23,254 nt of DNA, from positions 1 through 23,254 of the IMG/VR virus record IMGVR_UViG_3300024519_000019. One strand, given 5' to 3'. This document shows positions 1-23,254 of this stretch, one piece after another. The notes under the pieces were generated by a model that was given only the letters and a program-made list of their open reading frames with translations, was not told the origin of the DNA and did no database searches. The translations under genes and the position numbers were made by a program. The stretch's first letter is position 1, and every line of letters begins with the position of its first letter. Source of the stretch: a virus.

Positions 1-1
1 G

Positions 2-43
2 GTTCCCTACAAGGCCCCTGAGGGCCACCCTCAAAGGATCTGA
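2..43 (+). CDS. possible C-terminal end of an upstream gene (partial)
   Basis: The first bases read without a stop in one frame to a TGA at 41-43, one base before the ATG at 45, a spacing typical of this window. Only 13 codons are visible and another frame is also open, so this is a guess from gene packing and no function can be given. Confidence 0.25.
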   Translation, partial: VPYKAPEGHPQRI

Positions 44-44
44 T

Positions 45-308
45 ATGGCTACCGCCTCTATTGTACTGACAAGTGCAGCTATTGATACTACAGTTGATCT
101 TACATCATTAGATGATACATTCATCGTCACATGCCTATCTGGTTCCGTACAGGTTACTGAGACAGCTACTGGTGAGCCTATAGTAAGGCTATCAGCAAAG
201 CCCGGTGGTGATGCCACCTCATCCAGTAAGACCTTTACATTCGGCACAGACTTTAACTTCACACTAACTGCCACAGCGGACAATACCACTGTAAGTGCAG
301 CCATCTAG
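45..308 (+). CDS. small beta-rich virion accessory protein, unknown function
   Basis: An 87-residue protein, rich in Thr, Ser, Ala and Val, with alternating polar and hydrophobic residues that suggest an all-beta fold. It has no signal peptide, membrane segment or cysteine cluster beyond one Cys. The start is supported by AAAGGA at 33-38, six bases before the ATG. It is followed after 8 bases by another small protein of similar character and then by a large fibre-like gene, so a role as a minor capsid or appendage protein is inferred from context only. I do not recognise the family. Confidence 0.65.
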   Translation: MATASIVLTSAAIDTTVDLTSLDDTFIVTCLSGSVQVTETATGEPIVRLSAKPGGDATSSSKTFTFGTDFNFTLTATADNTTVSAAI

Positions 309-316
309 GAGCCCTT

Positions 317-607
317 ATGGCAGATACAATCCCAGACGTGGCCGTTACGCCCAACACATACGTGAGCTTAAATAGCTTATCTGGAGTGGCGGCGGGCACA
401 GCGGTACTCATAACTAACAAGGGCACATCCCCTATTAGGCTACAGATAGCTGCAGCCCAGCCATCTGATGGCGACACAGGGGGCGAGTTAATGATGGTTC
501 TACCCGCGAATACAGCAATCAAGTCTATTCCTGCAGGGGAGAGCGAAGTTTGGGCAATGACTATAGGCTACGTTGATATGCCTGTTAGCGTACAAGATAA
601 CACATAA
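317..607 (+). CDS. small phage virion-type protein, unknown function
   Basis: A 96-residue protein with the layout of small single-domain beta-sandwich proteins often found beside phage fibre genes: an N-terminal strand region (DVAVTPNTYVSLNSLSGVA), an NKGTSPIRLQ segment near residues 36-45, and a C-terminal ESEVWAM segment near residues 77-83. The AGGAG of TAGGAGCCCTT, overlapping the stop of the previous gene, gives a good ribosome site. The family resemblance is from memory and weak. A structural role is inferred from neighbours. Confidence 0.65.
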   Translation: MADTIPDVAVTPNTYVSLNSLSGVAAGTAVLITNKGTSPIRLQIAAAQPSDGDTGGELMMVLPANTAIKSIPAGESEVWAMTIGYVDMPVSVQDNT

Positions 608-613
608 GATTAA

Positions 614-638
614 GTAGCCTCTCAGGAAGAGAAGCTAC
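614..638 (+). other. stem-loop between two virion genes
   Basis: GTAGC (614-618) pairs with GCTAC (634-638) and the inner CTCT (619-622) pairs with AGAG (628-631), leaving a 2-nt bulge (632-633) and a 5-nt loop. No T-run follows, so this is not a standard intrinsic terminator; it may protect or separate transcripts. Confidence 0.4.
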
Positions 639-711
639 GCAGGATACATATTACACCGAGACTCTGGGGGGTGCCTAGGTGTAGTCAATGAGCATGACAA
701 AAGGAATTGAG

Positions 712-2460
712 ATGACTATAAGACCCCCCAACTCCGGTGGCGATGGAGGAGGCATGGTGTTCTCCATATCAGAGGACAGCCTCCCTATGGGAAGCGCAAG
801 TGGTAATATCCTTGACAGCCCCTACTCTATCGATGATGCTAGTAATATCACTGATGGTACGTACACTCTATACAAGGCCCCCGGCACTGTAATCGTAGTA
901 AACTCTGCATCTGATATAGAGGATCTAGCCGTAGCGAATGTCATTACTGTGACTACGCCGACCACATTCATATTCAACGTATCCTACGTTGGCCTAACTA
1001 AGTTCTCGATTGACGCGGGTGCATCTGTGAGGTTTGCAGGGGTGGCACCAACACCACAGTACGTGTACACCGGGGTTGGCACATTCTACTCTGGGGAGGG
1101 GTCGATGGAGCTAGTTAACATAAACCTAGTCTCCACCAGCTCTGCCACATTAGCTGACACCACTGGCAGTGGTTACTTCTCTTTTGAATTCCTCTCCATG
1201 CTTGGGTGGGGTGACCTAGGGATTATAAACAAGAACGGTAGGGTAACCTTCCGGTTCTGCTCCCTAAGGGACATAGGCACTGGATTTGATGTTGTCAACG
1301 CTGACGTAGAAGTACTTAACCTCAAGGTTCTTGATGGGTCTGTAGTAGGCCCTCTAGTATCCCTCTCCGGTAATAGGGTAGCAGCGTACACAGCCTCCGG
1401 TATAAAATTCCAAGCTGACTCAGCAGCATCCTTATTTCACATAGACCCTGCTATGAACCCACAGTCTAGGTTCAACATGGCACAGACCAGCTTGATATCT
1501 GGGTCTGCCTTTGATGTTAACGGGACTCAGGGTGTTTTCACTGCAGTAGCAGATGCCTCTACTGGCTCAACTGCAGTCAGTGTTATTGACTCCCCAGTGT
1601 CTCCGGGCCTTGCTAGGTACACATTTACTGGCCCTACGCTGTACTCAGGCCAAGAGGTGGTCGCTACTGGGTTCACTACTAATGACAATTACAATGGCAC
1701 CCTCTGCATTACTGACACTGACGGCACCTCCTATTTTGAGGCCTTGTTCATTGACTATGGCTCGGATGAGAGTGCTAACTTCACGGTAGATTCTGTAGTT
1801 ATGACAGAGACATCAACCGCCCTAGTAAACGGCGACACTATAATGTTGGACACTGACGGAGCCACAGATTACGATGGTGGACGTACAGTATTCAACCAGC
1901 AGACAAATAGCTTCCAAGTGAGCTTACCCTTTACATCAACACATACGGGTACATGGGATACATCTGGAATAGACCAGACAGACCCTAGGGTGTTGGTTAA
2001 TAATAGTCCCGGTATTCAGTCTAGCCTTTACACAGCTGGGGGGATCTCTAACGCTAATGCAGTCACTACTTCTGTATCTGACGGCGGCTACACAGACATA
2101 GACTTCAGCGGAATAACACAGCAGGGAACCATAGAGAGGTTTAAGGTAGTAGAGGACGGTACTTGGGAGTACACAGGGCTTGAGCCCATTAAGATGGTCA
2201 TATATGGGTCTCTTACAGTGTTCAAGGGCGGGCCTACTGCAGCCTATAGGTTCACTTACGCTATCAACGATGAAGTGCCTACCTTTGCTACTGCACACTA
2301 CCATCCGGTGGAAGTGAAGACAGATAAGATATCCATACCTGTCCTACTGGAAGTGGGTACGATGGTTAAGGGGGATACCGTCCAGCTAAAGATTGCTGGG
2401 GATGGTACTAGCGATAGTATAACTGTCTCGGACGCTAGCCTAGTAATAGGCTCAGTATAG
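712..2460 (+). CDS. large tail fibre / spike-like virion protein
   Basis: A 582-residue protein. I chose the ATG at 712 over the in-frame ATGs at 688 and 694 because AAGGA (701-705) lies six bases before it and nothing comparable precedes the others. The N-terminus is Gly/Asp-rich and flexible (PPNSGGDGGGM). Residues about 40-300 are Ser/Thr/Val/Gly-rich with repeated short strand-turn motifs, as in phage beta-helical or beta-sandwich fibres. The last 100 residues (including FTYAINDEVP and a final TVSDASLVIGSV) look like the compact jelly-roll (TNF/C1q-like) tips seen on phage fibres. No enzyme motif was seen. Host attachment is inferred from composition, size and neighbours. Confidence 0.6.
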   Translation: MTIRPPNSGGDGGGMVFSISEDSLPMGSASGNILDSPYSIDDASNITDGTYTLYKAPGTVIVVNSASDIEDLAVANVITVTTPTTFIFNVSYVGLTKFSIDAGASVRFAGVAPTPQYVYTGVGTFYSGEGSMELVNINLVSTSSATLADTTGSGYFSFEFLSMLGWGDLGIINKNGRVTFRFCSLRDIGTGFDVVNADVEVLNLKVLDGSVVGPLVSLSGNRVAAYTASGIKFQADSAASLFHIDPAMNPQSRFNMAQTSLISGSAFDVNGTQGVFTAVADASTGSTAVSVIDSPVSPGLARYTFTGPTLYSGQEVVATGFTTNDNYNGTLCITDTDGTSYFEALFIDYGSDESANFTVDSVVMTETSTALVNGDTIMLDTDGATDYDGGRTVFNQQTNSFQVSLPFTSTHTGTWDTSGIDQTDPRVLVNNSPGIQSSLYTAGGISNANAVTTSVSDGGYTDIDFSGITQQGTIERFKVVEDGTWEYTGLEPIKMVIYGSLTVFKGGPTAAYRFTYAINDEVPTFATAHYHPVEVKTDKISIPVLLEVGTMVKGDTVQLKIAGDGTSDSITVSDASLVIGSV

Positions 2461-2477
2461 TACAAAGAATTGGAGAG

Positions 2478-2492
2478 AGGAGCCCCGCTCCT
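2478..2492 (+). other. short perfect hairpin after the fibre gene
   Basis: AGGAGC (2478-2483) and GCTCCT (2487-2492) form a 6-bp stem with a CCC loop, 18 bases after the fibre stop codon. There is no following T-run, so a terminator role is unproven. Confidence 0.35.
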
Positions 2493-2504
2493 GAAGAATC
2501 GCGT

Positions 2505-2562
2505 CCCCAGTAGAGACCCCTCCGCTCTGAGCCGATAGTAATAATAACATTCGGTACTGGGG
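2505..2562 (+). other. inverted repeat / folded leader upstream of the TerS candidate
   Basis: CCCCAGTA (2505-2512) is the exact reverse complement of TACTGGGG (2555-2562). Inside, CCGA (2532-2535) pairs with TCGG (2551-2554), which abuts the outer 3' arm. This gives a 12-bp composite stem with a 19-nt one-sided bulge and a 15-nt AT-rich loop. It ends 27 bases before the ATG at 2590. Confidence 0.45.
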
Positions 2563-2589
2563 ATGCACCTAATTCAAGAGGAGCCTAAT

Positions 2590-3072
2590 ATGGCCAAGTT
2601 CCAACCCGGAGTATCAGGTAACCTCCTAGGGAGGGGTGCTTCTAAGAACAAGATACCCTCCAAGGCATTAATCGAGAGGAGCCTTCTGAAGGGCTCCGAT
2701 GATGCTATTAAGACTTTAAGAACAATGCTGAAACACTCCGATGAGAAAGTCAGAGAGAAGGCAGGCACCAAGATAGTAAAAGAAGGCATGAAGCTCCTAC
2801 GAGAGCAAGAAGCCAAAGGTAGGAAGTACCGCACAGATGGTGTTCAAGGTAAGTTCCTAGCAGAGCTAGAGGGCGCCATCATAGAGCTACAAGTCCTTAT
2901 GACTGATTCCATAGACCCCCTGATTAGGGTTAGGGTGGCATCATACCAGCTAGACGAGATTCTAACAGTCCTCAGAGAGAGGTACGAGAGGAAAGAGAAG
3001 AAGGGTGCCAAGGGTACAACCAGCACACCTACTGCAGCTCCTCTAAGCTTGGTCATGGGGAGTAAGAAATGA
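2590..3072 (+). CDS. probable terminase small subunit (DUF5681-like N-terminus)
   Basis: A 160-residue basic, mainly helical protein. The N-terminus reads MAKFQPGVSGNLLGRGASKN, matching the F-x-PG-x-SGNP-x-GR pattern of DUF5681 proteins that are often annotated as small terminases. A helical segment (IPSKALIERSLL to about residue 70) follows, then a charged helical region suited to oligomerisation, and a Thr/Ala/Pro tail. The ATG at 2590 has AAGAGGAG six bases upstream; the in-frame ATG at 2563 lacks a site. Its expected role is recognising phage DNA and loading TerL. Unusually it lies 5 kb from TerL, separated by fibre and lectin genes. A general DNA-binding protein is the alternative. Confidence 0.6.
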   Translation: MAKFQPGVSGNLLGRGASKNKIPSKALIERSLLKGSDDAIKTLRTMLKHSDEKVREKAGTKIVKEGMKLLREQEAKGRKYRTDGVQGKFLAELEGAIIELQVLMTDSIDPLIRVRVASYQLDEILTVLRERYERKEKKGAKGTTSTPTAAPLSLVMGSKK

Positions 3073-3839
3073 GCTTAGATAATGGCCTCCTAGCGGCCTA
3101 TCGAGTGGTAGGTGGAGAGTACGTAGATCAGAGCCCCGTTGGTGGGGCTGATGGTGTGAAGACTGGAACTCCCACTACTTCAGTTGGTGACGGCGGAGAG
3201 ACCTTCTTCAATTTCGATGGATCTACCAACAGCATAGAAATGCCACTGACACCTATAGATGCCTATGCCACTTCCGCCACCCTTGCCATTCGATGCTTTG
3301 GGACAGTGGATCTGGGAACCAACAATGCGGTTGCATCATTAGGGCTAGTGGGACAGACCACTAGCAACCTAGCCCTGAGGGGCTCTGGCAGTGCGGGTGA
3401 TGTTAGCGGATTCATGCGTGACTTGGCCTCCAACAATACAGCAACAAACCTAAACAACACATCCACATGGGATGGTACAGAGAGGGTACTCATAGTTGAG
3501 TACAACTCCCCTGACTTAACTCTAGGGATCTTTGATGAGGTTGAGGGCCTATCCAACGTCCAACCAGCGCTAGCTCAGGATAGCTCATTTAACTTCGATA
3601 GGGTTACTGCTGGGGCTAGGTTTGACACAACGTGGCCAGCGCAGGCATCAGTATCTTGGGTTGCAGTTTGGCCTAGGGTATTGTCCTCCACGGAGAAAGA
3701 GGCCTTAGCAGCCTCCCCGTGGCCAGACTTCGTAGGTGGTGGTCAGACAGACCTAGACGACCTAGGTACAGTGAACAACACCGTAGTAGAAACAATCCAA
3801 TTATCAATTAAGCCTAGCACAGGCAACTCAGTAAACTAA
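3069..3839 (+). CDS. LamG / concanavalin A-like lectin-domain virion protein
   Basis: A 256-residue protein whose ATG overlaps the stop of the TerS candidate (ATGA), implying translational coupling. Residues about 5-225 follow a LamG/ConA jelly-roll pattern: LLAAYRVVGGEYVDQSP, an FFNFDGSTNSIEMP strand pair, then SWVAVWPRVLSSTEKEALAA, which matches the closing strand and helix of phage LamG domains. The last 30 residues (DLDDLGTVNNTVVETIQLS) are a separate polar tail. LamG domains on phages usually bind glycans or decorate the capsid or tail; which applies here is not shown. A second LamG protein lies at 5201-7555. Confidence 0.65.
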   Translation: MSLDNGLLAAYRVVGGEYVDQSPVGGADGVKTGTPTTSVGDGGETFFNFDGSTNSIEMPLTPIDAYATSATLAIRCFGTVDLGTNNAVASLGLVGQTTSNLALRGSGSAGDVSGFMRDLASNNTATNLNNTSTWDGTERVLIVEYNSPDLTLGIFDEVEGLSNVQPALAQDSSFNFDRVTAGARFDTTWPAQASVSWVAVWPRVLSSTEKEALAASPWPDFVGGGQTDLDDLGTVNNTVVETIQLSIKPSTGNSVN

Positions 3840-3857
3840 TACCCACAGGGGCAACCA

Positions 3858-4256: not shown

Positions 4257-4259
4257 CCT

Positions 4260-5150: not shown

Positions 5151-5200
5151 TCACTTATACCGAGGTACACAATAATATAAGACTATAGGGGCACCAACGA

Positions 5201-7555
5201 ATGGCGATAATTGGTAAGCTGCCTAAGAAATTACATGCGGGTTTTAAAGACCCGATGGGGAAGCCCCCCGGTGAAGTAGAGATAGATTGGGCTAATGGCC
5301 TAACTGATGGTCTTTGCTTCTACACCACACTGGATGCAGACTTACCAATTGACCATGTATCCAGCTCACATTCTGAGAAGGTGGGTACGCCTGAGTTAGG
5401 GTATAATAACGAAGGTAGGCTGGTAGACTTCGGTGGGGGCACCGACAGACTAGACTTCCCAGATGCACCTGTCTTTGACGAGACACTGCCTTACACACTA
5501 TTTATCAGGTGTAATCCAGACTTCTACACTGACCTGACTCCAGTGGTATTGGTCATAGAGGGTATCACCAACAACCTAGTCCTGTCGTTCAGGAGTACTA
5601 ACGGCCCGATGGGGCCGGTTGCTTTTGGTCTTGATAATGGCGGCAATGTAGCACGACCGCAGAATACCTTCAGTAATAATCTTTGGCGAGATGGTAACTA
5701 CCACACCCTAGTCGTAACTTATAACGGAGAGGGGGCTACCACCACTAGCAACTACGACTTCTACCGTGATGAGACACACCACGGTGGCCGTGGCGCAGGC
5801 ACTGGTGGCGTATACCCAGACTACTCCTTCGTCAATGGTGCCTCAGTAGGTGGTAGTGATGATGTAGCAGATGGGCACTTTCTTGGCCCCATGACATTTG
5901 TAGGAGGTATCTGTGGAGTAGCGTGGACTCACGGACAAGTAGTAGAGTTCAACAGAAACCCATACCAGATACTGAAGCCTAAAGTACAGATACCCCTCAT
6001 AGAAGATACCTTTGACGGGGCAAGCCTCACAGCGGATGTTGACGAGGCTGGTGATACTACAGCAGCAACATTAGAGGGGATAGCATCTCTCACAGCAAGT
6101 GTCTCAGAAGATGGGGATACTACAGCGGCTAGCCTAGAGCTACCTGCCAACCTAACAGCAAGTGTCTCCGAGGAAGGAGATACCACAGCAGCAGATATAG
6201 ATGCAGCAGCATCCCTAACAGCCAGCCTCTCAGAAGATGGCGATGTCACACTAGCCACACTGGAAGCTTTAGCCTCCTTAACGGCTAACTTAGCTGAGGA
6301 AGGGGATACAACTGCAGCCACATTAGCAGGCATTGCCTCTCTGGTAGCATCTGTTTCAGAAGATGGTGATGCAACAGCAGCACTCCTAGAGTTAATAGGG
6401 GAGCTCGCAGCTAACGTATCAGAGGATGGGGATACAACCTCAGCTAGTGTCGAGGCTGTAGCCTCACTGGCAGCAAGCCTAAACGAAGAGGGTGATGCTA
6501 CAGTAGCTACCCTTGAGGGAATAGCTTCCCTTACAGCCAACCTCCTAGAGGATGGTGATACTACAGCATCACTCTTAGAGCTCCTTGCAGGACTCACAGC
6601 AGACGTAGCAGAAGACGGTGACACTACCGCAGCCCTTATTGAGCTGATAGCTGAGGTTACAGCTGATGTCTCTGAGGATGGCGATACAACCTTAGCCAAC
6701 CTACAGGGTGTAGTGGCTGGAGTTGCCCTCCTTACTGCTGATCAATATGAGGTAGGGGACACTACAGCAGCAACCTTAGAGGCTGTGGCAAGTATAGTAG
6801 CTACTGTTGCTGAAGATGGTGATACAACATTAGCTTTACTAGGGACTATAGCAAGCCTTACAGCTAACACAGCTGAAGTAGGTGACACAACCTTAGCTCT
6901 GCTAGAAGCCCCAGCAAGCCTTGCAGCCAATGTTTCAGAGGTGGGCGATACAACATTAGCCCTTCTGGAAGCCGTAGCAAGTCTAACAGCAGATGTGGCT
7001 GAAGTAGGCGACACCACTCTAGCTAACCTCGAAGGGGTAGCTGCAGGGGTAGCAAACATCACAGCAAGCCTCCTTGAGGAAGGTGATGCAACAGCAGCCT
7101 CCCTTGGAGCTGTCTTCTCTCTGACTGCAAATGTCTCGGAGGATGGTGATACAGCCACAGCACTCCTACAGGTACCGGGTAACTTAGTAGTTAGCCTAGC
7201 AGAGGCCGGGGATACCACCTTAGCTAACCTTGAGGTGCTAGAAGCGGTAGCCAACCTTACGGCTAATGTGTTTGAGGAGGGTGACTCTACCCTAGCATCC
7301 ATTGAGGGTGTCCTTAGCCTAACAGCTAATGTCCTTGAGGACGGTGATGCAACTACTGCCACCATAGACGTACTGGTACAGCTTGTAGCTGATGTACAAG
7401 AGGATGGTGATACTACCCTAGCAAATATGATCGTGGGAGCCCAGTTGGCTGACCCATGTGATATAGGCCTAGAGGGAACCTTCAGCTTTGGTGACATAGA
7501 CTTCAATGCTACTTTCAGCTTTGGGGATATAAATCTTTCAGGTGATATATGTTAA
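5201..7555 (+). CDS. LamG-domain protein with 22 tandem 21-residue repeats (fibre/adhesin)
   Basis: A 784-residue protein with three parts. Residues about 30-265 form a LamG/ConA-like lectin domain, from GLCFYTTLDADLP to the phage-typical closing motif FNRNPYQILKP. Residues 276-748 are 22 tandem copies of a unit with consensus LTAxVxEDGDTTxAxLExxA: nineteen of 21 residues, two of 25 and one of 24. The C-terminus (residues 749-784) carries two TFSFGDI copies. The regular Gly-Asp turns with alternating hydrophobics suggest a stacked beta-solenoid or hairpin shaft carrying the lectin, probably on the virion surface. AGGGG lies nine bases before the start. Its total size depends on repeat number, so related phages may differ in length. 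Confidence 0.7.
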   Translation: MAIIGKLPKKLHAGFKDPMGKPPGEVEIDWANGLTDGLCFYTTLDADLPIDHVSSSHSEKVGTPELGYNNEGRLVDFGGGTDRLDFPDAPVFDETLPYTLFIRCNPDFYTDLTPVVLVIEGITNNLVLSFRSTNGPMGPVAFGLDNGGNVARPQNTFSNNLWRDGNYHTLVVTYNGEGATTTSNYDFYRDETHHGGRGAGTGGVYPDYSFVNGASVGGSDDVADGHFLGPMTFVGGICGVAWTHGQVVEFNRNPYQILKPKVQIPLIEDTFDGASLTADVDEAGDTTAATLEGIASLTASVSEDGDTTAASLELPANLTASVSEEGDTTAADIDAAASLTASLSEDGDVTLATLEALASLTANLAEEGDTTAATLAGIASLVASVSEDGDATAALLELIGELAANVSEDGDTTSASVEAVASLAASLNEEGDATVATLEGIASLTANLLEDGDTTASLLELLAGLTADVAEDGDTTAALIELIAEVTADVSEDGDTTLANLQGVVAGVALLTADQYEVGDTTAATLEAVASIVATVAEDGDTTLALLGTIASLTANTAEVGDTTLALLEAPASLAANVSEVGDTTLALLEAVASLTADVAEVGDTTLANLEGVAAGVANITASLLEEGDATAASLGAVFSLTANVSEDGDTATALLQVPGNLVVSLAEAGDTTLANLEVLEAVANLTANVFEEGDSTLASIEGVLSLTANVLEDGDATTATIDVLVQLVADVQEDGDTTLANMIVGAQLADPCDIGLEGTFSFGDIDFNATFSFGDINLSGDIC
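6026..7444 (+). repeat. coding tandem repeat array, 22 units of about 63 bp
   Basis: The array is in frame within the 5201-7555 gene. The most constant positions are Glu-x-Gly-Asp-Thr/Ala-Thr in the middle, a hydrophobic pair at the start and Leu near the end. Nearly all variation is substitution, and DNA copies differ at many synonymous sites, so the array is old rather than freshly amplified. Three longer units (25, 25 and 24 residues; units 11, 16 and 19) carry extra GVA- or EVL-type residues. Confidence 0.85.
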
Positions 7556-7568
7556 AGACTAAACCTTC

Positions 7569-7907: not shown

Positions 7908-7983
7908 TCCGATATAGCACAATTGGGAGTGCAGCTCACTTGTAATGAGCAGGTTGGGAGTTCGAGTCTCTCTGTCGGAACCA
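7908..7983 (+). tRNA. tRNA-Thr (anticodon UGU), CCA encoded
   Basis: A full cloverleaf: acceptor TCCGATA with TGTCGGA (one G-U pair), D stem GCAC/GTGC, anticodon stem GCTCA/TGAGC with loop CTTGTAA (anticodon TGT at 7941-7943), variable AGGTT, T stem GGGAG/CTCTC with loop TTCGAGT, discriminator A and encoded CCA. It reads ACA, a very common threonine codon in this window. Confidence 0.93.
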
Positions 7984-7990: not shown

Positions 7991-8067
7991 GGGCCACTAG
8001 CATAGTGGGTTAATGCAGCCGACTCATAATCGGAAGACGCGAGGTTCAAATCCTTGGTGGCCCACCA
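7991..8067 (+). tRNA. tRNA with anticodon CAU, probably tRNA-Ile2 (AUA)
   Basis: Cloverleaf: acceptor GGGCCAC/GTGGCCC, D stem GCAT/ATGC, anticodon arm GCCGA-CTCATAA-TCGGA with a G27-A43 mismatch, T stem CGAGG/CCTTG, and encoded CCA. Anticodon CAT is at 8025-8027. The G1-C72 pair excludes an initiator tRNA. C4-G69 and C5-G68 are pairs found in E. coli tRNA-Ile2 but not in elongator tRNA-Met. After TilS lysidine modification it would read AUA, which this window uses heavily. The tRNA call is firm; the isotype is inferred. Confidence 0.88.
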
Positions 8068-8090: not shown

Positions 8091-9629
8091 ATGAGCGATA
8101 AAAAGGGTGGGGTTATCCCCGGCCCAACATCAGCAAAGCAGGAGATGATCATTAACTCTGATGCGCAGATAACGGTCATAGGAGGGGCAGCTGGGTCAGG
8201 AAAGAGCTACCTCCTACAAGTAATGGCCCTAAGGTATATAGATGACCCCAACACAACCTGCATAATGTTCCGAAGAACCACACCCCAGCTGATGGGTCAA
8301 GGTGGTATTGTAGACACAGCCAAGAGTATATACACAGCACTACCAAAGGATTACAGGCCCTCTTGGACACAGAAACCCATGCAGGCTACATTCCCTAATG
8401 GTGCCACTATACGCTGGCAGCACATGGAGCATGTGAGGAACAAGTTTGACATTCAGGGCCTGCAGTACACTTTCATAGGTGTAGACGAGGCCTGCCAGTT
8501 TGAGTGGGAACAGCTTGAGTACATGACCTCAAGGCTACGTTCTGCATCTAGGCACAAAAGCCGTATGGTCATGTCGTGTAACCCAGACCCAGACCATAAG
8601 CTAAGGGAGATCCTTGAGGATTTCTACTTAGACGAAGACGGCTACCCTATCCCAGAAAGGGATGGAGTTGTGCGGTACTTTATGATGCAGAACGGTGACT
8701 TCATCTGGGGAGATACTGCTGACTATCTAGCTGATAAGTACGGAGTAGCTGATGAGGACAGGGATACCAAGATACTATCCTTCACCTTTATCTCATCTAC
8801 GATCTATGACAACCCTATCATGCTCAAGGAGAATAGGGAATACCTAGCTTTCCTAGAGGGCCTCAACGAGGTTGACAAAGCTCAGCTACTGCACGGTAAC
8901 TGGTTTGCCAGAGCAGAGGGCAGCACCTTCTTTAAGAGGGAGTGGTTGGAGGCCGTTGACTATGTACCAGATGGAGCTCAAGAGGCTGTGGGGTATGATA
9001 AGGCAGCGTCTAAGCCATCTCAAGCAGACAGAAGTCCTGATTACACCGCATGTACGAAGATGTCTAAGTGCCGGGAAGGGTATTACTACATAACTGGTGA
9101 CTATATAGAGTCCTTCAAAGATGAGGACACAGGTATATACGGACGCTTCAGGGAGACTGCCGGGAGGAGAGATAACCTCATAGAAGCCCAAGGGCACTAT
9201 GATGGCCGAGATTGTCATATAGTTATGCCACAAGATCCCGGTGCTGCAGGTAAGATGGAGATACTAGAGAGTTGTAAAAAACTCACAGCAGTAGGCCTAA
9301 TCCCTAAGAAAGATCTTATCCCTATTAACAAGGCTAAGGTGACTAAGTTCATGCCCTTTGCAACAGCTGCAGAGAACGGGCTAGTTAGGATAGTTAAGAG
9401 TACTTTTAAGAATGCCAAGTCTTTAGAGGCCTACCTAAAAGAGCTTGATAGCTTTGATGGTGAACGTAGTACGGCACACAAGAAAGATGACTGGGTGGAT
9501 GCCACGGCTACAGTGTTCAACTACCTCACACTAAGCAGAACCTACAAGTTCACCCCCAGAAACCAAGCCAAAGTAAAGACCTTGGCAAACGATCACTTAA
9601 GCAACAATGAAGTCCCTCGGAGGGGATAA
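8091..9629 (+). CDS. terL: terminase large subunit (ATPase-nuclease)
   Basis: A 512-residue DNA-packaging motor that docks on the portal, pumps DNA using ATP and cuts the concatemer. Walker A is GGAAGSGKS at residues 31-39, Walker B is TFIGVDEA at 127-134 (D132, E133), and the coupling motif MSCNPD is at 161-166. The RNase H-like nuclease shows D303 in GYDKAAS, D382 in MPQDPG and the closing KKDDWVDA (D466, D467, D470). All key acidic residues are present and the length is normal for TerL. GGAGG six bases upstream fixes the start. It follows the tRNAs and is two bases from the next gene. Confidence 0.96.
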   Translation: MSDKKGGVIPGPTSAKQEMIINSDAQITVIGGAAGSGKSYLLQVMALRYIDDPNTTCIMFRRTTPQLMGQGGIVDTAKSIYTALPKDYRPSWTQKPMQATFPNGATIRWQHMEHVRNKFDIQGLQYTFIGVDEACQFEWEQLEYMTSRLRSASRHKSRMVMSCNPDPDHKLREILEDFYLDEDGYPIPERDGVVRYFMMQNGDFIWGDTADYLADKYGVADEDRDTKILSFTFISSTIYDNPIMLKENREYLAFLEGLNEVDKAQLLHGNWFARAEGSTFFKREWLEAVDYVPDGAQEAVGYDKAASKPSQADRSPDYTACTKMSKCREGYYYITGDYIESFKDEDTGIYGRFRETAGRRDNLIEAQGHYDGRDCHIVMPQDPGAAGKMEILESCKKLTAVGLIPKKDLIPINKAKVTKFMPFATAAENGLVRIVKSTFKNAKSLEAYLKELDSFDGERSTAHKKDDWVDATATVFNYLTLSRTYKFTPRNQAKVKTLANDHLSNNEVPRRG

Positions 9630-10146: not shown

Positions 10147-11739
10147 ATGACAGATGAAACAGTAGAGATCAAGAAGGCCGAGACAGTAGGTAAGCAGGCC
10201 ATTATACGTCCACAGAGCTTAAAGGAGAAGGGTCAGCCACGGCAAGTGACTGGCTCTAGGTTCATTCAGGATGGGGCCAAGCAAGACCTCATCATGCCTA
10301 ATAGCTTATACACCTTTGACAATATGGCGTTAGACTCCGCAGTGTTCACTGCAATGGACTCATCTAATGCCCAAGTACTATTATCTCTAAGTGGGGGCGA
10401 GGCAGTCCCCGGCAAGAGTAATTCCTCTGTAGCTAAAGAGGCCGCAGAGTTTATTAACTATAACATACGCAATATGTCCTTTGGTACTTGGATGCAGAGT
10501 ATGAATGATGCTTGTACTGATCTTCAGAATGGCTTCTCTACTCAGAATATTGTACTAGAGAGACGTAACTACGGGCAGTACAAGGGTATGTACTGCCTTA
10601 AGAAGTTGGCCCCTAGATCACAGAAGAGTGTATACGGGTGGGTTTACGATAAGAACTTCAGGGATGTACTTGGGTATGTCCAGAAGCCTATGGTTAAGAA
10701 GTCTAAGCAACCCACAGAGAAGCAGTTCGAACGTGGCATAACTAACACCAACTCCATAATTAACAGCCAGCAGTATACTTATCTTAAGAACGAGGAGTTG
10801 CTCTGGTTTAGGCACAATCCCACACAGAACAACCCTGAGGGGAATAGCCCCCTTAAGAACTGTTACGCAGCTTGGATGGAGAAGGCTCTTGTAGAGAACT
10901 TTGAGATCGTTGGTGTCACTAAAGACTTAGGTGGGGCGTATGTCCTTAGGGTAGACCCCGGCCTAATCGAGATGGCCAATGACCCAGAGGGTAACACAGA
11001 AGCCAAGACAGAGTATACCACACTACAACAAGATGCAGCTGACCTCGTGGCAGGTAAGGATACATTCATCCTACTGTCATCAGAGACAGATGAGAACGGT
11101 AAGTACCTTAATGACTTCTCCATGATGGGGATCTCTGGTACGGGCAAGCAGTACTCCACTTCAGAGATTATAGAGCAGAAGCGTAAGGATATCTTTAATG
11201 TATTCGGTGCATCAGCACAGATCACTGGGGACAACGGAGGGGGTAGTTACTCCCTAAGCTCAAGCAAGACTACCATCCAAGAGTTATACGTACAGAGGAT
11301 TATAGACTGGAAGGTTGATGTTATCAACACCCAATTAATCCCAAGGCTCCTAGCAGCTAACAACATACAGTTGAACTGGAAGGACATGCCTACCTTCAGG
11401 TCAGGAGTAGCCTCAGAGCTTAACTTCGATGAGCTTAGTAAAGCTGTTATGAGAATGGCTGGTACCGGGATGATGACTCCTAGCGCCCTTAAGGAGCTCT
11501 ACAGGCAAGCAGGACTCCCTGAGGACGGTATAGACGACCTAGACTTCACAGCTGCTTCAGGTGGTGATGTAGGGACTTCCAATGGCTCCTCTGGGAATGG
11601 CTCCACTAACCAGAACAACTCCGAGAAGAACGGAGAGAATGGTGGGGTGGAGAAGTCTAGAGTTACCAGTATGGTAGAGGATGAGAAGGGTAGGCTTATT
11701 GACACCGAGACAGACAAGGTACTGGAGAATGTCCAATGA
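10147..11739 (+). CDS. portal protein (Mu gp29 / DUF935-like)
   Basis: A 530-residue protein of typical portal size placed directly after TerL. It forms the dodecameric ring at one capsid vertex through which DNA passes. Family-like segments include an N-terminal TDLQNGFSTQNIVLERR region (about 120-140), ELLWFRHNPTQNNPEGNSPL (about 218-237), KDIFNVFGASAQITGD (about 347-362), and a helix-rich crown with RIIDWKVDVINTQLIPRLL (about 382-400). The last 60 residues are a Gly/Asn/Ser-rich disordered stretch with a short charged tail. It lies 20 bases after the preceding gene. Assignment to the DUF935-type portal group is from remembered pattern; portal function is well supported by order and size. 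Confidence 0.85.
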   Translation: MTDETVEIKKAETVGKQAIIRPQSLKEKGQPRQVTGSRFIQDGAKQDLIMPNSLYTFDNMALDSAVFTAMDSSNAQVLLSLSGGEAVPGKSNSSVAKEAAEFINYNIRNMSFGTWMQSMNDACTDLQNGFSTQNIVLERRNYGQYKGMYCLKKLAPRSQKSVYGWVYDKNFRDVLGYVQKPMVKKSKQPTEKQFERGITNTNSIINSQQYTYLKNEELLWFRHNPTQNNPEGNSPLKNCYAAWMEKALVENFEIVGVTKDLGGAYVLRVDPGLIEMANDPEGNTEAKTEYTTLQQDAADLVAGKDTFILLSSETDENGKYLNDFSMMGISGTGKQYSTSEIIEQKRKDIFNVFGASAQITGDNGGGSYSLSSSKTTIQELYVQRIIDWKVDVINTQLIPRLLAANNIQLNWKDMPTFRSGVASELNFDELSKAVMRMAGTGMMTPSALKELYRQAGLPEDGIDDLDFTAASGGDVGTSNGSSGNGSTNQNNSEKNGENGGVEKSRVTSMVEDEKGRLIDTETDKVLENVQ

Positions 11740-13642: not shown

Positions 13643-14737
13643 ATGAGTGACCACGGAATTGTAAAAGCCCTAGGGGTTTCCGGTGATAGCGCATTTGAGA
13701 TGGTGGATGTTTCCCCTCTCGTACAACGCACACAGATCGCCCCTAAATTACTTACTGCCTTATTTGGTGGTGAGATTAACTCTATCTTCAATCAGACTCG
13801 TACAGTCCGCCACGATGACCTCCAGCACGAAGGTGTGTCTGTCGCTGGTAAGCAGTACTCTGAGTACGGCCCTCGCGCACTGACTGACAAGCCTCGTCAG
13901 CTGAGCTACGACATTGGTTCTTTTGGTGTTACTTACAACACCAAGCCCGGTGATATCTCTGGTCGTCGGACTCCCGGTACCAATGAGTTGATGACAGAAG
14001 AGTACTTACTAGGCCAACTAGGCAACAAGGTTGACAAGGCGTGGGTCAAGTTCGAGGAGCAGCTTATCGCTACCTTGTTAACTACTGACTCTAACTTCAC
14101 TGCTGGTGGTAATCACACAACTTATGACTACTTTGTTGAAGTCATGGGTGATACCCGTGCCAACTTGATTGCTGGTGCTAACGGTAGCGGCCAAGTCTCT
14201 ATGCAATTGGCAGGTAGTGTCGATCACATTGAGTTGTTCACAGAGCAAGCTGATTACCTGCAGACTGACCTAGAGAAGACTGGTAACGACTCCTCTATGA
14301 CTGTCGTTATATGTGGTAAGAACTTCTTCGCACAGCGCTTAGAGATTGAGCGTGACGTAGGCTTCAACCGTGAATTGCGTAACACACTAGATATGCAAAG
14401 TATGGGTGTACCTGCTGGCGGCTTCGGCTCTGGTCAGTTCAACTACCAGTGGTTTGATAGCCCACGGGATGGTATCCGCTATATCCGTTATGCAGCTTCT
14501 TACGATGGCGCTAAGATGATCGGTGATGACGATGCGTACATGGTGCCTATCGGTGCTGAGAACTTCTTACGTACTGCATATGCCCCTGCCCAGACTCGTA
14601 CCTACGTTAACACTGTAGCCCAGTCTGCGTATGCTTGGAGTAAGGTAGATGACCGTCAAGGCACTACTGTAGCTTCTGAGAAGAATGTTCTGGGTATTGC
14701 GGTTAATCCTCAGCTTATTCGCCGCTTAGTAGTCTAA
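13643..14737 (+). CDS. major capsid protein, lambda gpE-like (HK97 fold)
   Basis: A 364-residue protein matching the phage major capsid protein E family. It has an N-terminal region with SPLVQRTQIAPKLLTALF, a middle with MTEEYLLGQLGNKVDKAWVK, an E-loop-like region, and the family closing block from DDDAYMVPIGAENFLRTAYA through NPQLIRRLVV. It forms the icosahedral shell after protease processing. Codons are strongly of the high-expression type: among about 16 Ile codons only one is ATA, and Arg is read by CGN with no AGG or AGA, unlike most genes here. It follows scaffold and decoration genes, completing the head cluster. Confidence 0.92.
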   Translation: MSDHGIVKALGVSGDSAFEMVDVSPLVQRTQIAPKLLTALFGGEINSIFNQTRTVRHDDLQHEGVSVAGKQYSEYGPRALTDKPRQLSYDIGSFGVTYNTKPGDISGRRTPGTNELMTEEYLLGQLGNKVDKAWVKFEEQLIATLLTTDSNFTAGGNHTTYDYFVEVMGDTRANLIAGANGSGQVSMQLAGSVDHIELFTEQADYLQTDLEKTGNDSSMTVVICGKNFFAQRLEIERDVGFNRELRNTLDMQSMGVPAGGFGSGQFNYQWFDSPRDGIRYIRYAASYDGAKMIGDDDAYMVPIGAENFLRTAYAPAQTRTYVNTVAQSAYAWSKVDDRQGTTVASEKNVLGIAVNPQLIRRLVV

Positions 14738-15767: not shown

Positions 15768-15775
15768 GAGGCTTT

Positions 15776-16728: not shown

Positions 16729-16771
16729 CCGGCTCGTAGAGCTAATTAATCACCTAAGAGGAATCCACTAG

Positions 16772-18148
16772 ATGGCCTATCAAGACAATATCGTAAATGT
16801 CTCCATCTCGCTTGACACCACTGCTGTAACCGTTGCGGGGTTTGGTACACCAATCTTCGCTTCTGAGCATCGCTGGTTCCCTGAGCGAGTACAGTCGTTT
16901 ACATCACTAGCAGAAGTAGCAGCAGTTGCCCCAACAGATTCAAACGAGTATGCAGCAGCTGTAGGCTTCTTTAACTCGGACATTTCACCCAATCTTATCA
17001 AGATTGGTAGGCGCACTGTTGACACAATCACGTACACACCTACGGGTGACCCTTCAGTAGCTGGCACCGTGTACACCTTGTCGGTAACTGGTACTGATGA
17101 TGTCACAGTTGAAGGTAGTTACACAACCCTACTAGCTGACACAGCAGTTGAGGTTACCGCTGGTTTGGCTGCAGACCTCACTGGTAATGTAACTGGTGTA
17201 GATGTAGTTGATGGTACAGGTACATTGACAGTATCAGCCACAGTCCCCTCAGTGGACAACTACACAGTTAGTGATATTAGCGGCTTATCCTACGCATACA
17301 CTACCACAGAGACTGCAGCCGATATGGTTACAGCCATCTCTGAAGAGGATAATGACTGGTACTTTATGACATCTAATGATCATACTGATGCCTTCGTTAA
17401 CACCTTAGTCACTGGCATGGCCCCCACTATTGAAGCCCTAGAGAAGCTCTACTTCCTGTCTGTACAGGACACTGAGACTTTAGTTGCTTGGACTGGCACA
17501 GCCCCTACTGATGATGTAGCTGGGCAATTAACTGAAGATGTACGTACACGCTCAACTGCAATCTTCCACCAAGATGCTGACACAGTATTTGCTGAATGCT
17601 ACTTCATCTCTGAGTTTGCTACCAAGAATCCCGGTGAAGAGGTTTGGACTAACAAGCCTATAGGACTGAGCGCATCACAAGACCCTACCACTGGTAATGT
17701 CCTCACATCGACCCAGCGAGGTTACCTAGCTGACCGTAACTGTAACTTCATCCAGAACCAAGGCGGTGTTGCTATTGTCCGTACTGGCCGTACAGCTAGT
17801 GGAGAACGCATAGGTGTTATGAGGTTCCGTGACTTCCTAGCAGCCCGTATCACTGAGGCGTTCCAGTTACTGCAGATCAATGAGGACAAGATCCCTTATA
17901 CTGATGGCGGTATCAATCAGTACCGTAGCACATTAGAGAGTGTCTTGTCCTCCTATGTATCTACTGCACAACAGCCTAAAGGTCTACAAGAAGCACCAGC
18001 CTACACAACTACATTCCCTAAGCGAGCTGGTGTCTCTGCTTCTGATGTACTTGCTGGCCTACTTACTTGCTCCTTTGAGGCGTTCCTATCAGGTGCCATC
18101 ACAGAGAGTATCGTGCAGGGTTCATTAACAATTGAAGGTCTAGGCTAA
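16772..18148 (+). CDS. contractile tail sheath protein (DUF3383-like)
   Basis: A 458-residue protein of the DUF3383 sheath type. The N-terminal domain carries FGTPIFASEHRWFPERVQSF and ends near IKIGRRTVDT. A Thr/Val-rich beta insert of about 90 residues follows, then the core with LEKLYFLSVQDTE and QLTEDVRTRSTAIFHQDADT. The C-terminal part has RDFLAARITEAFQLLQINED and the conserved closing strand AITESIVQGSLTIEGLG. It forms the contractile outer tube and marks the phage as a myovirus. Codons are mostly of the high-expression type (two ATA among about 26 Ile), in keeping with many copies. It sits 11 bases before tube gene 1. Confidence 0.85.
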   Translation: MAYQDNIVNVSISLDTTAVTVAGFGTPIFASEHRWFPERVQSFTSLAEVAAVAPTDSNEYAAAVGFFNSDISPNLIKIGRRTVDTITYTPTGDPSVAGTVYTLSVTGTDDVTVEGSYTTLLADTAVEVTAGLAADLTGNVTGVDVVDGTGTLTVSATVPSVDNYTVSDISGLSYAYTTTETAADMVTAISEEDNDWYFMTSNDHTDAFVNTLVTGMAPTIEALEKLYFLSVQDTETLVAWTGTAPTDDVAGQLTEDVRTRSTAIFHQDADTVFAECYFISEFATKNPGEEVWTNKPIGLSASQDPTTGNVLTSTQRGYLADRNCNFIQNQGGVAIVRTGRTASGERIGVMRFRDFLAARITEAFQLLQINEDKIPYTDGGINQYRSTLESVLSSYVSTAQQPKGLQEAPAYTTTFPKRAGVSASDVLAGLLTCSFEAFLSGAITESIVQGSLTIEGLG

Positions 18149-18159
18149 GGAGCTTATAA

Positions 18160-18636: not shown

Positions 18637-18646
18637 GGATTGACAA

Positions 18647-19153: not shown

Positions 19154-19174
19154 TGACCCTCGGAGGGATTAACT

Positions 19175-19687
19175 ATGAGTACAGGATTTGGTGCTATTGC
19201 AGCACAAGCAGAGGCCAAAAGTGGCACTGTCAGTAAGACCATTAATGGCAAAGCGTTTACCATCAACCGTATGTCAGGCCTGCCGGGGTATATGCTCGGC
19301 TTTAAGCTAATGAGACAACTACTCCCAGCGATAGGTAGTGTCGGGGATGGTGTGCAGAACTTTGAAGATATCTTCCCAGAGGATAGGTCTGTATTCACAC
19401 AGATCAGTGTGCTCCTCAGTAGTGGCCTAGGCAATGTAGACATAGAGGAAGTAATCAGGTTACTGCTGGGTGGAGCTACCCTAGATGGCGTAGCAATTAA
19501 CCTAGACGACCCAGACTTCCTCCGTGGAGATGTAGCCTCAGTGGCCTTCCTATTGGAGTGGGCATTGGAGGTGAACTATAAAGATTTTTTTATCGTGTAT
19601 ATCATGGAGAGGGTTACAGGCATCCCCGCTGTGATACAAAATCTGATGCCACGGCACACAACGTCAGGAGAGTCATCAGAGACATAG
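19175..19687 (+). CDS. tail assembly chaperone, short form (gpG-like)
   Basis: A 170-residue protein directly upstream of the tape measure gene, the fixed position of tail assembly chaperones. GGAGG lies eight bases before the ATG. The protein is helical with a typical IAAQAEAKSGTVSKTINGKA start and an LEWALEVNYKDFFIVYIMER block before the C-terminus. Within codons 137-139 the message holds T TTT TTT (19585-19591), where a fraction of ribosomes should slip by -1 and make the longer fusion. The short form would coat the tape measure protein during tail assembly. Codon use is of the low-copy type. Confidence 0.85.
   Translation: MSTGFGAIAAQAEAKSGTVSKTINGKAFTINRMSGLPGYMLGFKLMRQLLPAIGSVGDGVQNFEDIFPEDRSVFTQISVLLSSGLGNVDIEEVIRLLLGGATLDGVAINLDDPDFLRGDVASVAFLLEWALEVNYKDFFIVYIMERVTGIPAVIQNLMPRHTTSGESSET
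19585..19591 (+). promoter_or_regulatory. -1 ribosomal frameshift slippery heptamer
   Basis: T TTT TTT is in register with the zero frame (GAT TTT TTT ATC) and fits X XXY YYZ exactly. After slippage the -1 frame is open for 106 codons to TAG 19909-19911. No strong structure begins 5-9 bases downstream; GGCATC (19619-19624) and GATGCC (19645-19650) could form a stem further on. Confidence 0.85.
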
Positions 19688-19911
19688 AGAGGACATCCAC
19701 TCTCAACGATGATGAATCTGGTGCCAAGTGGTTCTTCTATAACATAGTGAGAAGTAAGAACTGTCCCCCAGCATGTACCAACCCACAAATGCTTATGTGG
19801 GAGTGGAGCCTTCCTGAGGTATTGGAGCTGGATGAGATGATTACTATGTGGGATGCAGTGGAAGAAGCAGTACATAAAGATAACGAAGCTAAAGAGAAGA
19901 GGGGAAGCTAG
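19591..19911 (+). CDS. tail assembly chaperone, frameshift-encoded C-terminal part (gpT-like)
   Basis: This is the -1 frame portion of the long chaperone form, read after slippage at 19585-19591; the joined product is 139 + 106 = 245 residues. The segment has no credible start of its own. It contains a WFFYNIVRSKNCPPACTN block and a LMWEWSLPEVLELDEMITMW helix, then a charged tail, a composition typical of the T domain that recruits tube subunits to the tape measure. It ends one base before the tape measure ATG. Both the reading frame and the position fit the conserved G/GT arrangement of long-tailed phages. Confidence 0.85.
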   Translation, partial: YRVYHGEGYRHPRCDTKSDATAHNVRRVIRDIERTSTLNDDESGAKWFFYNIVRSKNCPPACTNPQMLMWEWSLPEVLELDEMITMWDAVEEAVHKDNEAKEKRGS

Positions 19912-21783
19912 ATGGCTGACGAGTTCGGTAATTGGACGGTAGGGGTAGACTGGGACTTAACTGGGTTCAACAAGTCAGCTGCCCATGTAGAAAAGACTCT
20001 CAAGAAGCTTGTATCCTTACAGAATAAGCTCACCCCAGCTGTATCCCCTAGAGTATCTAAACTGGCAGGAATCAATGAGAAGGTGAACACCCAAGGGGCT
20101 GTTGTCGCTGAGAGGAGGGCTACAGCCGCTGAGAGGACTACTAGGGCTGCAGAGCGTACTGCTAGGGTTAATAAGTCCACTGCTGTTGAGGGTGATGCTT
20201 GGTTGGTCAGGAAGCAAAGGTTAAATGCTGAGATATTTGCTATAGAGGGTAAAATAGCAAGTAAGGTGAAGGAGACCCACAGGAACTACGACACTCTGAT
20301 AGCTAAGGCTAGGTTACTCAAGGCTGCTGCCCTGAAAGCTAATGACGCTAAGGGCCTTGTAAATTACCGGGAACAACTAGGTCTACTGAAAGCAGGTTTG
20401 GCAGACACCACCAACGAAATAGCCAGACAGAATAGGGCTATGAATAGCCAGAAGTTTGCTGCCAATAGCCTTACATCCTCTATGCAGAATATGGCTAGAA
20501 GTTACTTATCTGTCTTTGCAGCTATAGGGGCTGGTAGATCGGTATTTAATACTGCCTCTAGGTTTGACTCACTTGACGCCTCTATGCTGGCAGCATCAGG
20601 GTCAGCCGAAGCTGCGGCAGATGACTTTAGATTCGTTACAGATCTATCCTTTCAGATGGGCGTAGGCCTAGAAGCAACCACAGACGGCTTCAGGCAGATA
20701 GCATCAGCCCAGAGGTTTAGTGGAGTAAGTGCAGAGGAGAGTAGGAAGCAGTTCACACAGATGACTAAGATCACAAGGTCGTTTGGACTTGACACTGAAA
20801 GGACGAAGCTCTCCTTACTTGCCTTCCAGCAGATGATCTCCAAGGGTGTAGTTAGCTCTGAGGAACTACGTCGTCAGCTGGGTGAGAACTTACCGGGTGC
20901 AATGGCTGTAGCTGCTGATGCTATGGGCTTGACAGGTACAGAGCTTGATAAGATGCTACGCAGTGGTAAGGTTATTACTACTGATTTCCTACCTAAATTC
21001 TTAGATCTCTACGAGGGTATTGTAGTAGAGTCTGGTGCCTATGCCAAGTCCCTCAAGACTATCACCGTTGCCCAGAGTAGGTTTGTTAGTGAGTGGCAGT
21101 TGATGGTTAAGAACTTCTCTGACATGGGCGGCAAGAGCGCTGCTATAATAGTCCTAGAGGGCTTAAGGGATATCCTCATTAGTCTGGCACCTGTCCTCAA
21201 GTTGGTAGGTGGCTTAGTTGGTACCTTAGCGATAGCCGCTACTGGACTCGTCACTGGATTCACTGCTGCACTCTCCCCTATTGCTGAAGTCATCAACGCA
21301 CTATTGAGCATGGTGGGCGTTGTTGGAGGCCCAGACGGCTTAGTGACAGCCTTTGAGGCACTGGGTGTGGTTATGGGGGGCGTCTTTGTTATGGGTGCTG
21401 GGGGTGCCATTGGTGCTGCCGTGGCTGCTATGGCCAAGATGCTCAAGTATGTGGTCAAGTGGAGAGTCACCTTGAGACTGATCAGGATGGAGATGGCTAA
21501 GATTGCCTTCTTCTCTTCTTTAACTACTGGTGGTGCTACCGCACTCGCTGGAGCTGCTGCCTTCGGGGCGGTGGCTGTAGGTGGCATGGCACTGATCAAT
21601 AGGAGCGATCCCAGTGAGGCCCCCGGAGCAACAACAAACACAGACAAGAGCACTAACACCACTATAGAGAAGCTGGAAGTGAATGTCACAGCACCAGCTG
21701 GGGCCGATGCAAACCAGTTCGGTCAGCACGTAGCTGATTCTATGGCTGCTAGTATGGGGTTGTCCTCGGCTATAACTAATTAG
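19912..21783 (+). CDS. tail tape measure protein
   Basis: A 623-residue protein. Residues about 20-190 are helical and coiled-coil-like, including an Ala/Arg/Thr repeat (ERRATAAERTTRAAERTARV). Residues about 205-400 match the TMP_3 tape measure domain, with the signature GVVSSEELRRQLGENLPGAM. From about 420 to 565 there are several Ala/Gly/Val-rich hydrophobic segments, as in the part inserted into the host membrane. The tail is Thr/Asn-rich. At about 1.5 angstrom per residue the length would set a tail near 90 nm. It sits immediately after the chaperone, with AGGGGAAG upstream. Confidence 0.93.
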   Translation: MADEFGNWTVGVDWDLTGFNKSAAHVEKTLKKLVSLQNKLTPAVSPRVSKLAGINEKVNTQGAVVAERRATAAERTTRAAERTARVNKSTAVEGDAWLVRKQRLNAEIFAIEGKIASKVKETHRNYDTLIAKARLLKAAALKANDAKGLVNYREQLGLLKAGLADTTNEIARQNRAMNSQKFAANSLTSSMQNMARSYLSVFAAIGAGRSVFNTASRFDSLDASMLAASGSAEAAADDFRFVTDLSFQMGVGLEATTDGFRQIASAQRFSGVSAEESRKQFTQMTKITRSFGLDTERTKLSLLAFQQMISKGVVSSEELRRQLGENLPGAMAVAADAMGLTGTELDKMLRSGKVITTDFLPKFLDLYEGIVVESGAYAKSLKTITVAQSRFVSEWQLMVKNFSDMGGKSAAIIVLEGLRDILISLAPVLKLVGGLVGTLAIAATGLVTGFTAALSPIAEVINALLSMVGVVGGPDGLVTAFEALGVVMGGVFVMGAGGAIGAAVAAMAKMLKYVVKWRVTLRLIRMEMAKIAFFSSLTTGGATALAGAAAFGAVAVGGMALINRSDPSEAPGATTNTDKSTNTTIEKLEVNVTAPAGADANQFGQHVADSMAASMGLSSAITN

Positions 21784-21791
21784 GAACCACT

Positions 21792-22403
21792 ATGGCAGAA
21801 ATCACAGAGCAGTACTACATACTGACTCAAGACGGCACGGTGTACACGCTGGACTCCACTACAGGGATGGCCTATACCCTTAGCGGGGAGACCACTGACT
21901 CAAAAGTGGAGGCTGGGTTCACCTCATCTGACCACTATGTAGTTAAGAACACGATAGCCAGCCTTACTGGGGTCATCACTGATATAAACACCTTCCAGCC
22001 TAGCGCACACTCATTAGTCTCCGGGGATAGCTACACCAAGCACTGGTCAGAGAGGTTGACAGCCCTACAGAAGAGTGGAAATACGTTCTCCGTTGGTTGT
22101 ACCGGCAGCTTAGGGGTACTCAGTAGCTGTGTGTTCACCTCGCTGTCCTTCAACCAGTCCGGGGAAGTGGGTACTGCGGTACACGGCAGTGGGACTATAT
22201 CAGCCTTTAATATCCAGATGGCGTTTAAGCAGATAAGAGTAGCTACCCGGAGTGTCACTAAGACAGTACTTATAGACGTAGATGAGTCTATAGAGAAGGA
22301 AGCCTCTGACAAGGTTATCTCTGGTGCAGTGCCTGATGAGCCAGAACCGCCACAAGACCCCCTAGTACATAGAGGCCAAGAGATAACTTACCTAGGGTTC
22401 TAG
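21792..22403 (+). CDS. Dit-like / baseplate-proximal tail protein (probable)
   Basis: A 203-residue protein directly after the tape measure. After a beta-rich start (YYILTQDGTVYTLDSTTGMA), the segment KVEAGFTSSDHYVVKNTIAS-LTGVITDI resembles the N-terminal domain of Dit-like tail proteins, where a strand set ending in 'LTGVITDI' packs around the tube end. The C-terminal 50 residues are charged with a Pro/Glu-rich stretch. TAGGAACCACT precedes the start. The position between tape measure and baseplate plug supports a role at the distal tail end; family assignment is moderate. Confidence 0.55.
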   Translation: MAEITEQYYILTQDGTVYTLDSTTGMAYTLSGETTDSKVEAGFTSSDHYVVKNTIASLTGVITDINTFQPSAHSLVSGDSYTKHWSERLTALQKSGNTFSVGCTGSLGVLSSCVFTSLSFNQSGEVGTAVHGSGTISAFNIQMAFKQIRVATRSVTKTVLIDVDESIEKEASDKVISGAVPDEPEPPQDPLVHRGQEITYLGF

Positions 22404-22419
22404 GGGTAACGGAGGAAGT

Positions 22420-22764
22420 ATGCCATTAACTATACCAGTACCAAGTCACGCACACTCAGAGATTAGAAACACCCTAGGTGGTCTCTCCTACACCATAGAG
22501 TACAAATTCAACAGTAGGGATGAAGGGTGGAGGTTTGATGTCTATGACTCCTCCGGTAACGCTATCAAGCTCGGGATCAAGGTTGTGGAGAATATAGCCT
22601 TCTTCACTAGGTTTAGGTTACCGGGGTTCTCCACTGGGGATATAGTTTGCACTAAGTTTAGGCAGACAGACGACAACATAGACTTTAATAACCTAGGCTC
22701 CAACAAGGCCTACGTACTAACCTACCTCACTAATGCAGAGATAGCAGAACTCCTAGAGGGCTAA
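22420..22764 (+). CDS. baseplate plug protein (DUF6983 / Pam3 gp18-like)
   Basis: A 114-residue beta-rich protein, with CGGAGGAAGT immediately before the ATG. The layout IPVPSHAHSEIRNTLGGLSY, YKFNSRDEGWRFDVYDSSGN and LGIKVVENIAFF is the pattern of small baseplate plug proteins in simple myophages: a strand, an 'x-W-x-F-D-x-x-D-x-x-G-x-x' hairpin and an 'LGI-x-V' strand. It would close the hub before contraction. The next gene, a hub candidate, starts after two bases, matching the plug-hub order known in such phages. Confidence 0.68.
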   Translation: MPLTIPVPSHAHSEIRNTLGGLSYTIEYKFNSRDEGWRFDVYDSSGNAIKLGIKVVENIAFFTRFRLPGFSTGDIVCTKFRQTDDNIDFNNLGSNKAYVLTYLTNAEIAELLEG

Positions 22765-22766
22765 CC

Positions 22767-23254
22767 ATGGCAGACAGCAACTTAGCCTACAAGAGGAGAT
22801 ACTCCCTCTCTATAGCTCACCCAGAGAAGACCATAAGAACTAAGACCCCTAGTGCTGTACAGGGGGTGTATGAGAACCCAGCAGGCCCTACATACATCTA
22901 TCCACTGAAGATAGACCCTGCACTAAACTCCAACCCAGCATACTTTGACTACGTGTTCACTAACAATGATGCACAAGTGATCTCTGAGTTGAATATGCAG
23001 GCCACTATAGTATATGAGAAGGATGTGGTCTCAGCCACTCCCCAGCAGGCAACCATAACATTATACAATGTTAGTAAGGAGACTGACCAGTACCTCAAAG
23101 AGGAGGCTACCATAAAGCTCCAAGCGGGGTACGAGAAGGATGGGGATGACCTCCCCACACTCTTCATAGGGCAGATAAGTACTAAGATTACCACAAAGAG
23201 TGGGGCAGACATAATCACTGTCCTGTACTGTGGAGACTCCTATACACTGAAAAA
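22767..23254 (+). CDS. baseplate hub protein, N-terminal part (cut by window end)
   Basis: An open frame of 162 codons from ATG 22767 to the end of the window. The start reads MADSNLAYKRRYSLSIAHPE; the later part contains QATITLYNVSKETDQYLKEE and IKLQAGYEKDGDDLPTLFIG followed by QISTKITTKSGADIITVLYCGD. The 'TITLYNVSKET..., AGYE, LPTLFIG' series is common to the first barrel domain of phage hub proteins (gp27/gpD-like), which trimerise below the tube. The remainder lies outside the window, so total length and any C-terminal domain are unknown. Confidence 0.7.
   Translation, partial: MADSNLAYKRRYSLSIAHPEKTIRTKTPSAVQGVYENPAGPTYIYPLKIDPALNSNPAYFDYVFTNNDAQVISELNMQATIVYEKDVVSATPQQATITLYNVSKETDQYLKEEATIKLQAGYEKDGDDLPTLFIGQISTKITTKSGADIITVLYCGDSYTLK

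Follow-up and report, generated by a model that had tools for sequence, protein, structure and literature searches.

CCWGG and GGWCC are absent from a myovirus genome fragment: a probable record of selection exerted by Type II restriction enzymes of the hosts

The words CCWGG and GGWCC are both absent from the 23,254 nucleotides analyzed here (hereafter the window), which constitute the entire IMG/VR virus record IMGVR_UViG_3300024519_000019 (positions 1 to 23,254). Both words are also nearly absent from the near relative denoted G001, the differences between the two phages skip these words, and at homologous positions where a more distant relative retains sites, the window is silently recoded. 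CCWGG (the site of EcoRII, MvaI and PspGI) and GGWCC (AvaII, Eco47I and SinI) are established palindromic specificities of orthodox Type II restriction enzymes. Very probably, the myovirus lineage has been subject to long selection by at least two such enzymes of its hosts, one cutting each word; that restriction exerted the selection, how many enzymes took part and which host was involved are inferred from this pattern. Under the proposed mechanism, one host enzyme (EcoRII/MvaI/PspGI-type) would cut CCWGG and another (AvaII/Eco47I/SinI-type) would cut GGWCC, so that each site would present a chance for the cutting of the incoming unmethylated phage genome, and variants that lost a site, in almost every case through a synonymous codon substitution, would leave more progeny until the number of sites reached zero.

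Judging from its genes, the window is a fragment of the structural module of a myovirus, a tailed bacterial virus, the assignment to myoviruses following from the presence of a tail sheath protein gene. The predicted features are:

7908-7983, plus strand, tRNA-Thr
7991-8067, plus strand, tRNA-Met
8091..9629, plus strand, terminase large subunit (PHROG 979, E 1.4e-186), with both words absent
10147..11739, plus strand, portal protein (PHROG 113, E 1.5e-55)
13643..14737, plus strand, major capsid protein (PHROG 29, E 8.1e-12)
16772..18148, plus strand, tail sheath protein (PHROG 205, E 9.8e-77)
19912..21783, plus strand, tail tape measure protein (PHROG 18891, E 1.7e-34)
22767..23252, plus strand, baseplate hub protein, incomplete at the window end (PHROG 196, E 2.5e-18)

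The two tRNA genes are similar to those of numerous enterobacterial and Vibrio phages, and this pair is too widespread among phages for the host to be named from it. When the window was compared with 50,697 phage records, a close match was found for the tRNA only, and the host search in a bacterial genome collection covering 84,980 species yielded no related capsid or terminase. A 784-amino acid protein encoded at 5201-7555, for which no PHROG match was found, consists in its C-terminal two-thirds of an array of ~21-residue repeats (63-bp units, e.g. LTASVSEDGDTTAA).

The exact count of CCAGG and CCTGG is 0 on either strand, in agreement with a preliminary description of this sequence that had reported CCWGG to be missing. 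The 30-35 sites expected according to that description is a fair to low estimate: a maximal-order Markov model gives 33.4 sites, a synonymous-codon shuffle gives 47.3 (200 shuffles, minimum 35), and the strictest null, a shuffle that holds the proteins, the codon usage and the dinucleotides at codon junctions constant, gives 51.4 +/- 4.75 (300 shuffles, minimum 39, z = -10.8). The agreement of the three nulls confirms that the absence of CCWGG is real and beyond chance. Also as described previously, CCAG (106) and CCTG (53) are common and CCSGG is frequent, with 22 occurrences of CCCGG and 14 of CCGGG; the resulting 36 compare with 19-21 expected from the codon shuffles, that is, CCSGG is slightly raised rather than depleted. 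The codon-preserving shuffle that had been proposed as a check thus gives 47.3-51.4 expected CCWGG sites against 0 observed, with CCSGG undepleted; the accompanying count over the full genome was performed on the records of relatives. The avoidance, however, is not specific to the Dcm/EcoRII-type site as had been thought. The AvaII-type word GGWCC, overlooked in that first reading, is equally eliminated (0 against 22-28 expected; under the strictest shuffle, 27.5 expected, minimum 15, z = -6.0), and the count of GGSCC is normal (33 against 38 expected, strictest shuffle).

Among 1,288 motifs evaluated under the strictest null, CCWGG and GGWCC show the strongest independent depletions, with a weaker one for CYCGRG (2 against 11 expected). 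Base composition, codon usage or dinucleotide preference could by themselves make words rare, and they do account for some of the low counts, such as that of TCGA, for which z changes from -9.5 to -2.8 once the junction dinucleotides are fixed. CCWGG and GGWCC, however, are still extreme under the same null, the contrast between W and S in the same frame excludes a general effect on CCNGG, and a relative with the same gene order as the window (L034) retains both words; the probability that composition is the only cause is negligible. Apart from these two words, TACTA/TAGTA (TASTA) is moderately low (59 against 94 expected, strictest null), and the depletions of TCGA, GATC and CATG seen with weak nulls were dropped from consideration because they disappear or become smaller under the junction-preserving shuffle.

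The sites were removed by silent codon choice. The Pro codon preceding Gly is CCC or CCG in all 25 cases, compared with 65 of the 245 other Pro codons (p = 9e-14), and all 12 Gly codons that precede Pro are GGC or GGG (p = 1e-4). Between a codon that ends with C and a codon that starts with G, CAA is found 25 times and CAG not once (p = 3e-13), CTG is likewise never used in this context (p = 2e-7), and none of the 21 fourfold codons before Trp ends with C (p = 0.004). The same route is seen in the comparison with L034, the relative that avoids neither word (capsid 55% identical; CCWGG 10 against 14 expected, GGWCC 4 against 7). At all six site positions of L034 where the amino acid pair is conserved, the window holds a synonymous non-site: in the portal protein, at a Pro-Arg and a Gly-Ser pair, and in the major capsid protein, at a Gly-Pro, two Pro-Gly and a Thr-Arg pair, which are encoded in the window by GGC CCT, CCC GGT, CCC GGT and ACC CGT, respectively.

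Of the two causes that the preliminary description had put forward for the loss of CCWGG, there is support, albeit indirect, for prolonged selection by an enzyme cutting CCWGG, and mutational loss after cytosine methylation is contradicted by the 25 of 25 Pro-Gly pairs with CCC or CCG. In the latter scenario, a cytosine methylase, either Dcm-like from the host or phage-borne, would modify CCWGG and GGWCC, and deamination would turn the sites into CTWGG, CCWAG and the like. Two such products are indeed above the second-order expectation in the window (CTAGG 1.26x, CCAAG 1.10x), but CCCGG/CCGGG, neighbors that do not arise by deamination, are raised more (1.42x), and GGATC, which GGACC would yield upon deamination of its inner C, is at only 0.40x of the expectation. 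Deamination changes C to T and cannot convert CCW GGN into CCC or CCG GGN, so the recoding of the Pro-Gly sites, which were lost by A/T-to-C/G changes at the middle base, contradicts mutational loss and favors selection. Furthermore, mutation pressure alone should spare sites in constrained codons, yet zero remain. The signature of Dcm methylation followed by deamination, namely, an excess of C-to-T products and a loss confined to the C/G positions of the site, was not found in the window. The methylase family PF00145 is absent from eight related records, PF01555 is absent from the window, and the listed Pfam hits of non-structural ORFs in G001 include no methylase, although the window and most of its relatives are fragments, so that a methylase or an antirestriction gene could lie outside them. 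Altogether, mutational loss appears extremely unlikely.

The near relative G001, an incomplete IMG/VR record of 55,002 bases (L015-L017), has a capsid protein 97% identical to that of the window and aligns with the window in four main blocks at 92-97% nucleotide identity. Its coding sequence contains 5 CCWGG against 93 expected and 1 GGWCC against 64 expected; the five CCWGG mean that selection in this phage is incomplete or relaxed. In the 20.2 kb of aligned sequence, only two sites are confined to one of the phages, both of them CCWGG and none GGWCC, and 11 would-be sites are masked by a second difference, such that a hybrid sequence would have the site but neither phage does. This proportion of one-sided to hidden sites, 2 to 11, compares with 542 to 220 for 30 control words (Fisher p = 6e-5), which include multi-base codon changes and any recombination, effects that should apply to all words alike. 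Thus, the differences between the window and G001 tend to be paired in such a way that the forbidden words are bypassed. Because a word eliminated in both phages is rarely visible as a one-sided site, there are few chances for such sites, and the pairwise test shows recent constraint without providing an independent measure of its strength.

The pairwise differences also bear on whether the pattern could be an inherited scar, with an ancestor purged under restriction and present-day hosts that need not cut either word. The five CCWGG and the one GGWCC in G001, along with the single CCWGG in another near relative (L032), could be interpreted as early decay of such a scar. However, the 4-8% nucleotide divergence between the window and G001 predicts ~20 single synonymous differences that create a site, compared with the 2 sites present, and the hidden double changes exceed those in the controls. 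This combination of too few new sites with an excess of hidden double changes implies that selection acted until recently, and we consider the scar scenario quite unlikely.

The terminase large subunits of the window and G001 (L015:16819-18282 in the latter) are only 36% identical whereas the flanking sequences are over 90% identical; accordingly, window positions 8095-9485 fall outside the high-identity blocks. This divergence points to a gene swap. Both versions of the terminase gene lack CCWGG and GGWCC, so the acquired gene has either been purged or was donated by a phage that faced the same selection. Elsewhere in G001, one ORF (L015-L017) matches the PADLOC model of PtuB (Septu; 1.1e-42), and a weak match to PDC-S10 is located at L017:7946-8725.

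Across the other relatives, the set of avoided words varies. The shorter near relatives L013, L029 and L032 contain 0, 0 and 1 CCWGG, respectively, and no GGWCC. In the distant relative G002 (83,539 bases, L018-L022; capsid 46% identical to that of the window), both words are missing (0 and 0), and near-complete loss extends to CCNGG, CCGG (2 against 42 expected), GRGCYC (0 against 24) and CYCGRG (1 against 22), which suggests several additional restriction specificities. In G007, which is related via the terminase, CCWGG and almost every CCNGG are avoided, but the number of GGWCC is normal (77 against 77 expected). Taken together with G006 (L023-L025 for the two phages), which is also related by the terminase, it represents a different avoided set, with CCNGG nearly eliminated and GGWCC normal. 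Such variation shows that avoidance is not a fixed property of the lineage and fits host-specific enzymes; differences between related phages are to be expected if the avoided set follows the enzymes of the host.

The same variation speaks against the possibility that a nuclease targeting CCWGG and GGWCC in the DNA of the host or of rivals is encoded by the phage, or by an element that co-infects with it, and that the phage keeps its own genome free of the sites. Viruses with their own site-specific nucleases exist, chlorella viruses being an example, and the records of the window and G001 are incomplete, leaving room for such a gene. Nevertheless, the non-structural ORFs of G001 match 11 Pfam families, none of which is a restriction enzyme. 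A search of six further related records for EcoRII-C was also negative, a result of little weight because the control genomes likewise gave no match. Self-protection would, moreover, require two unrelated specificities. We regard self-protection as highly improbable, and its full form, in which the double loss protects against nucleases of both specificities carried by the phage or a partner element, as less probable still.

The loss of restriction sites has precedents among phages. According to Rusinov et al. (2018, PMC6286503), roughly one in ten viral genomes shows near-complete elimination of Type II sites, with elimination defined as an observed/expected ratio below 0.1 at more than 15 expected sites. 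By the same kind of estimate, CCWGG in the window (0/17.9) and GGWCC in G001 (1/21.6) are eliminated, whereas CCWGG in G001, with a ratio of 0.15, lies just above the cut-off. As in those dsDNA phages, short palindromic Type II sites are almost all lost from the window; unlike in those cases, the host and the enzymes are inferred from the sequence pattern. The hallmarks of restriction-site elimination are present here in the form of words that drop to zero against a strict null, sister words that are undepleted, correspondence to known Type II palindromes, and silent loss. Haloviruses of the HF1 group are myoviruses that lack several palindromes together (GATC, CTAG and GGWCC), which has been interpreted as evasion of several host systems (PMC7230728), but they differ from the window in that they infect archaea and that the main words they avoid are others.

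Among named phages, Alteromonas phage vB_AmeM_PT11-V22 (Myoalterovirus, MN877442) is the closest to the window in its capsid protein (29% identity; sheath, 38%) and resembles the window in the order of the structural genes and in the lack of CCWGG (0 against 31 expected). It differs in that GGWCC is reduced but not lost (8/34), and GATC and GGCC are reduced as well (82/182 and 31/74 expected, respectively; L027, L028). With GGWWCC (1 against ~44) and GGYRCC (1 against ~38) also low, this named marine phage shows multi-word avoidance.

The window therefore represents a strong and unusually complete new case of an established phage strategy, the mechanism itself not being new. From the set of words lost from a phage genome, one can read which restriction enzymes its hosts have used, and for this uncultured phage, the lost words predict two enzyme specificities in the host. 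The differing sets of related phages imply that this record of enzymes shifts with the host lineage; the record is useful for host prediction, with the window as a clean worked example.
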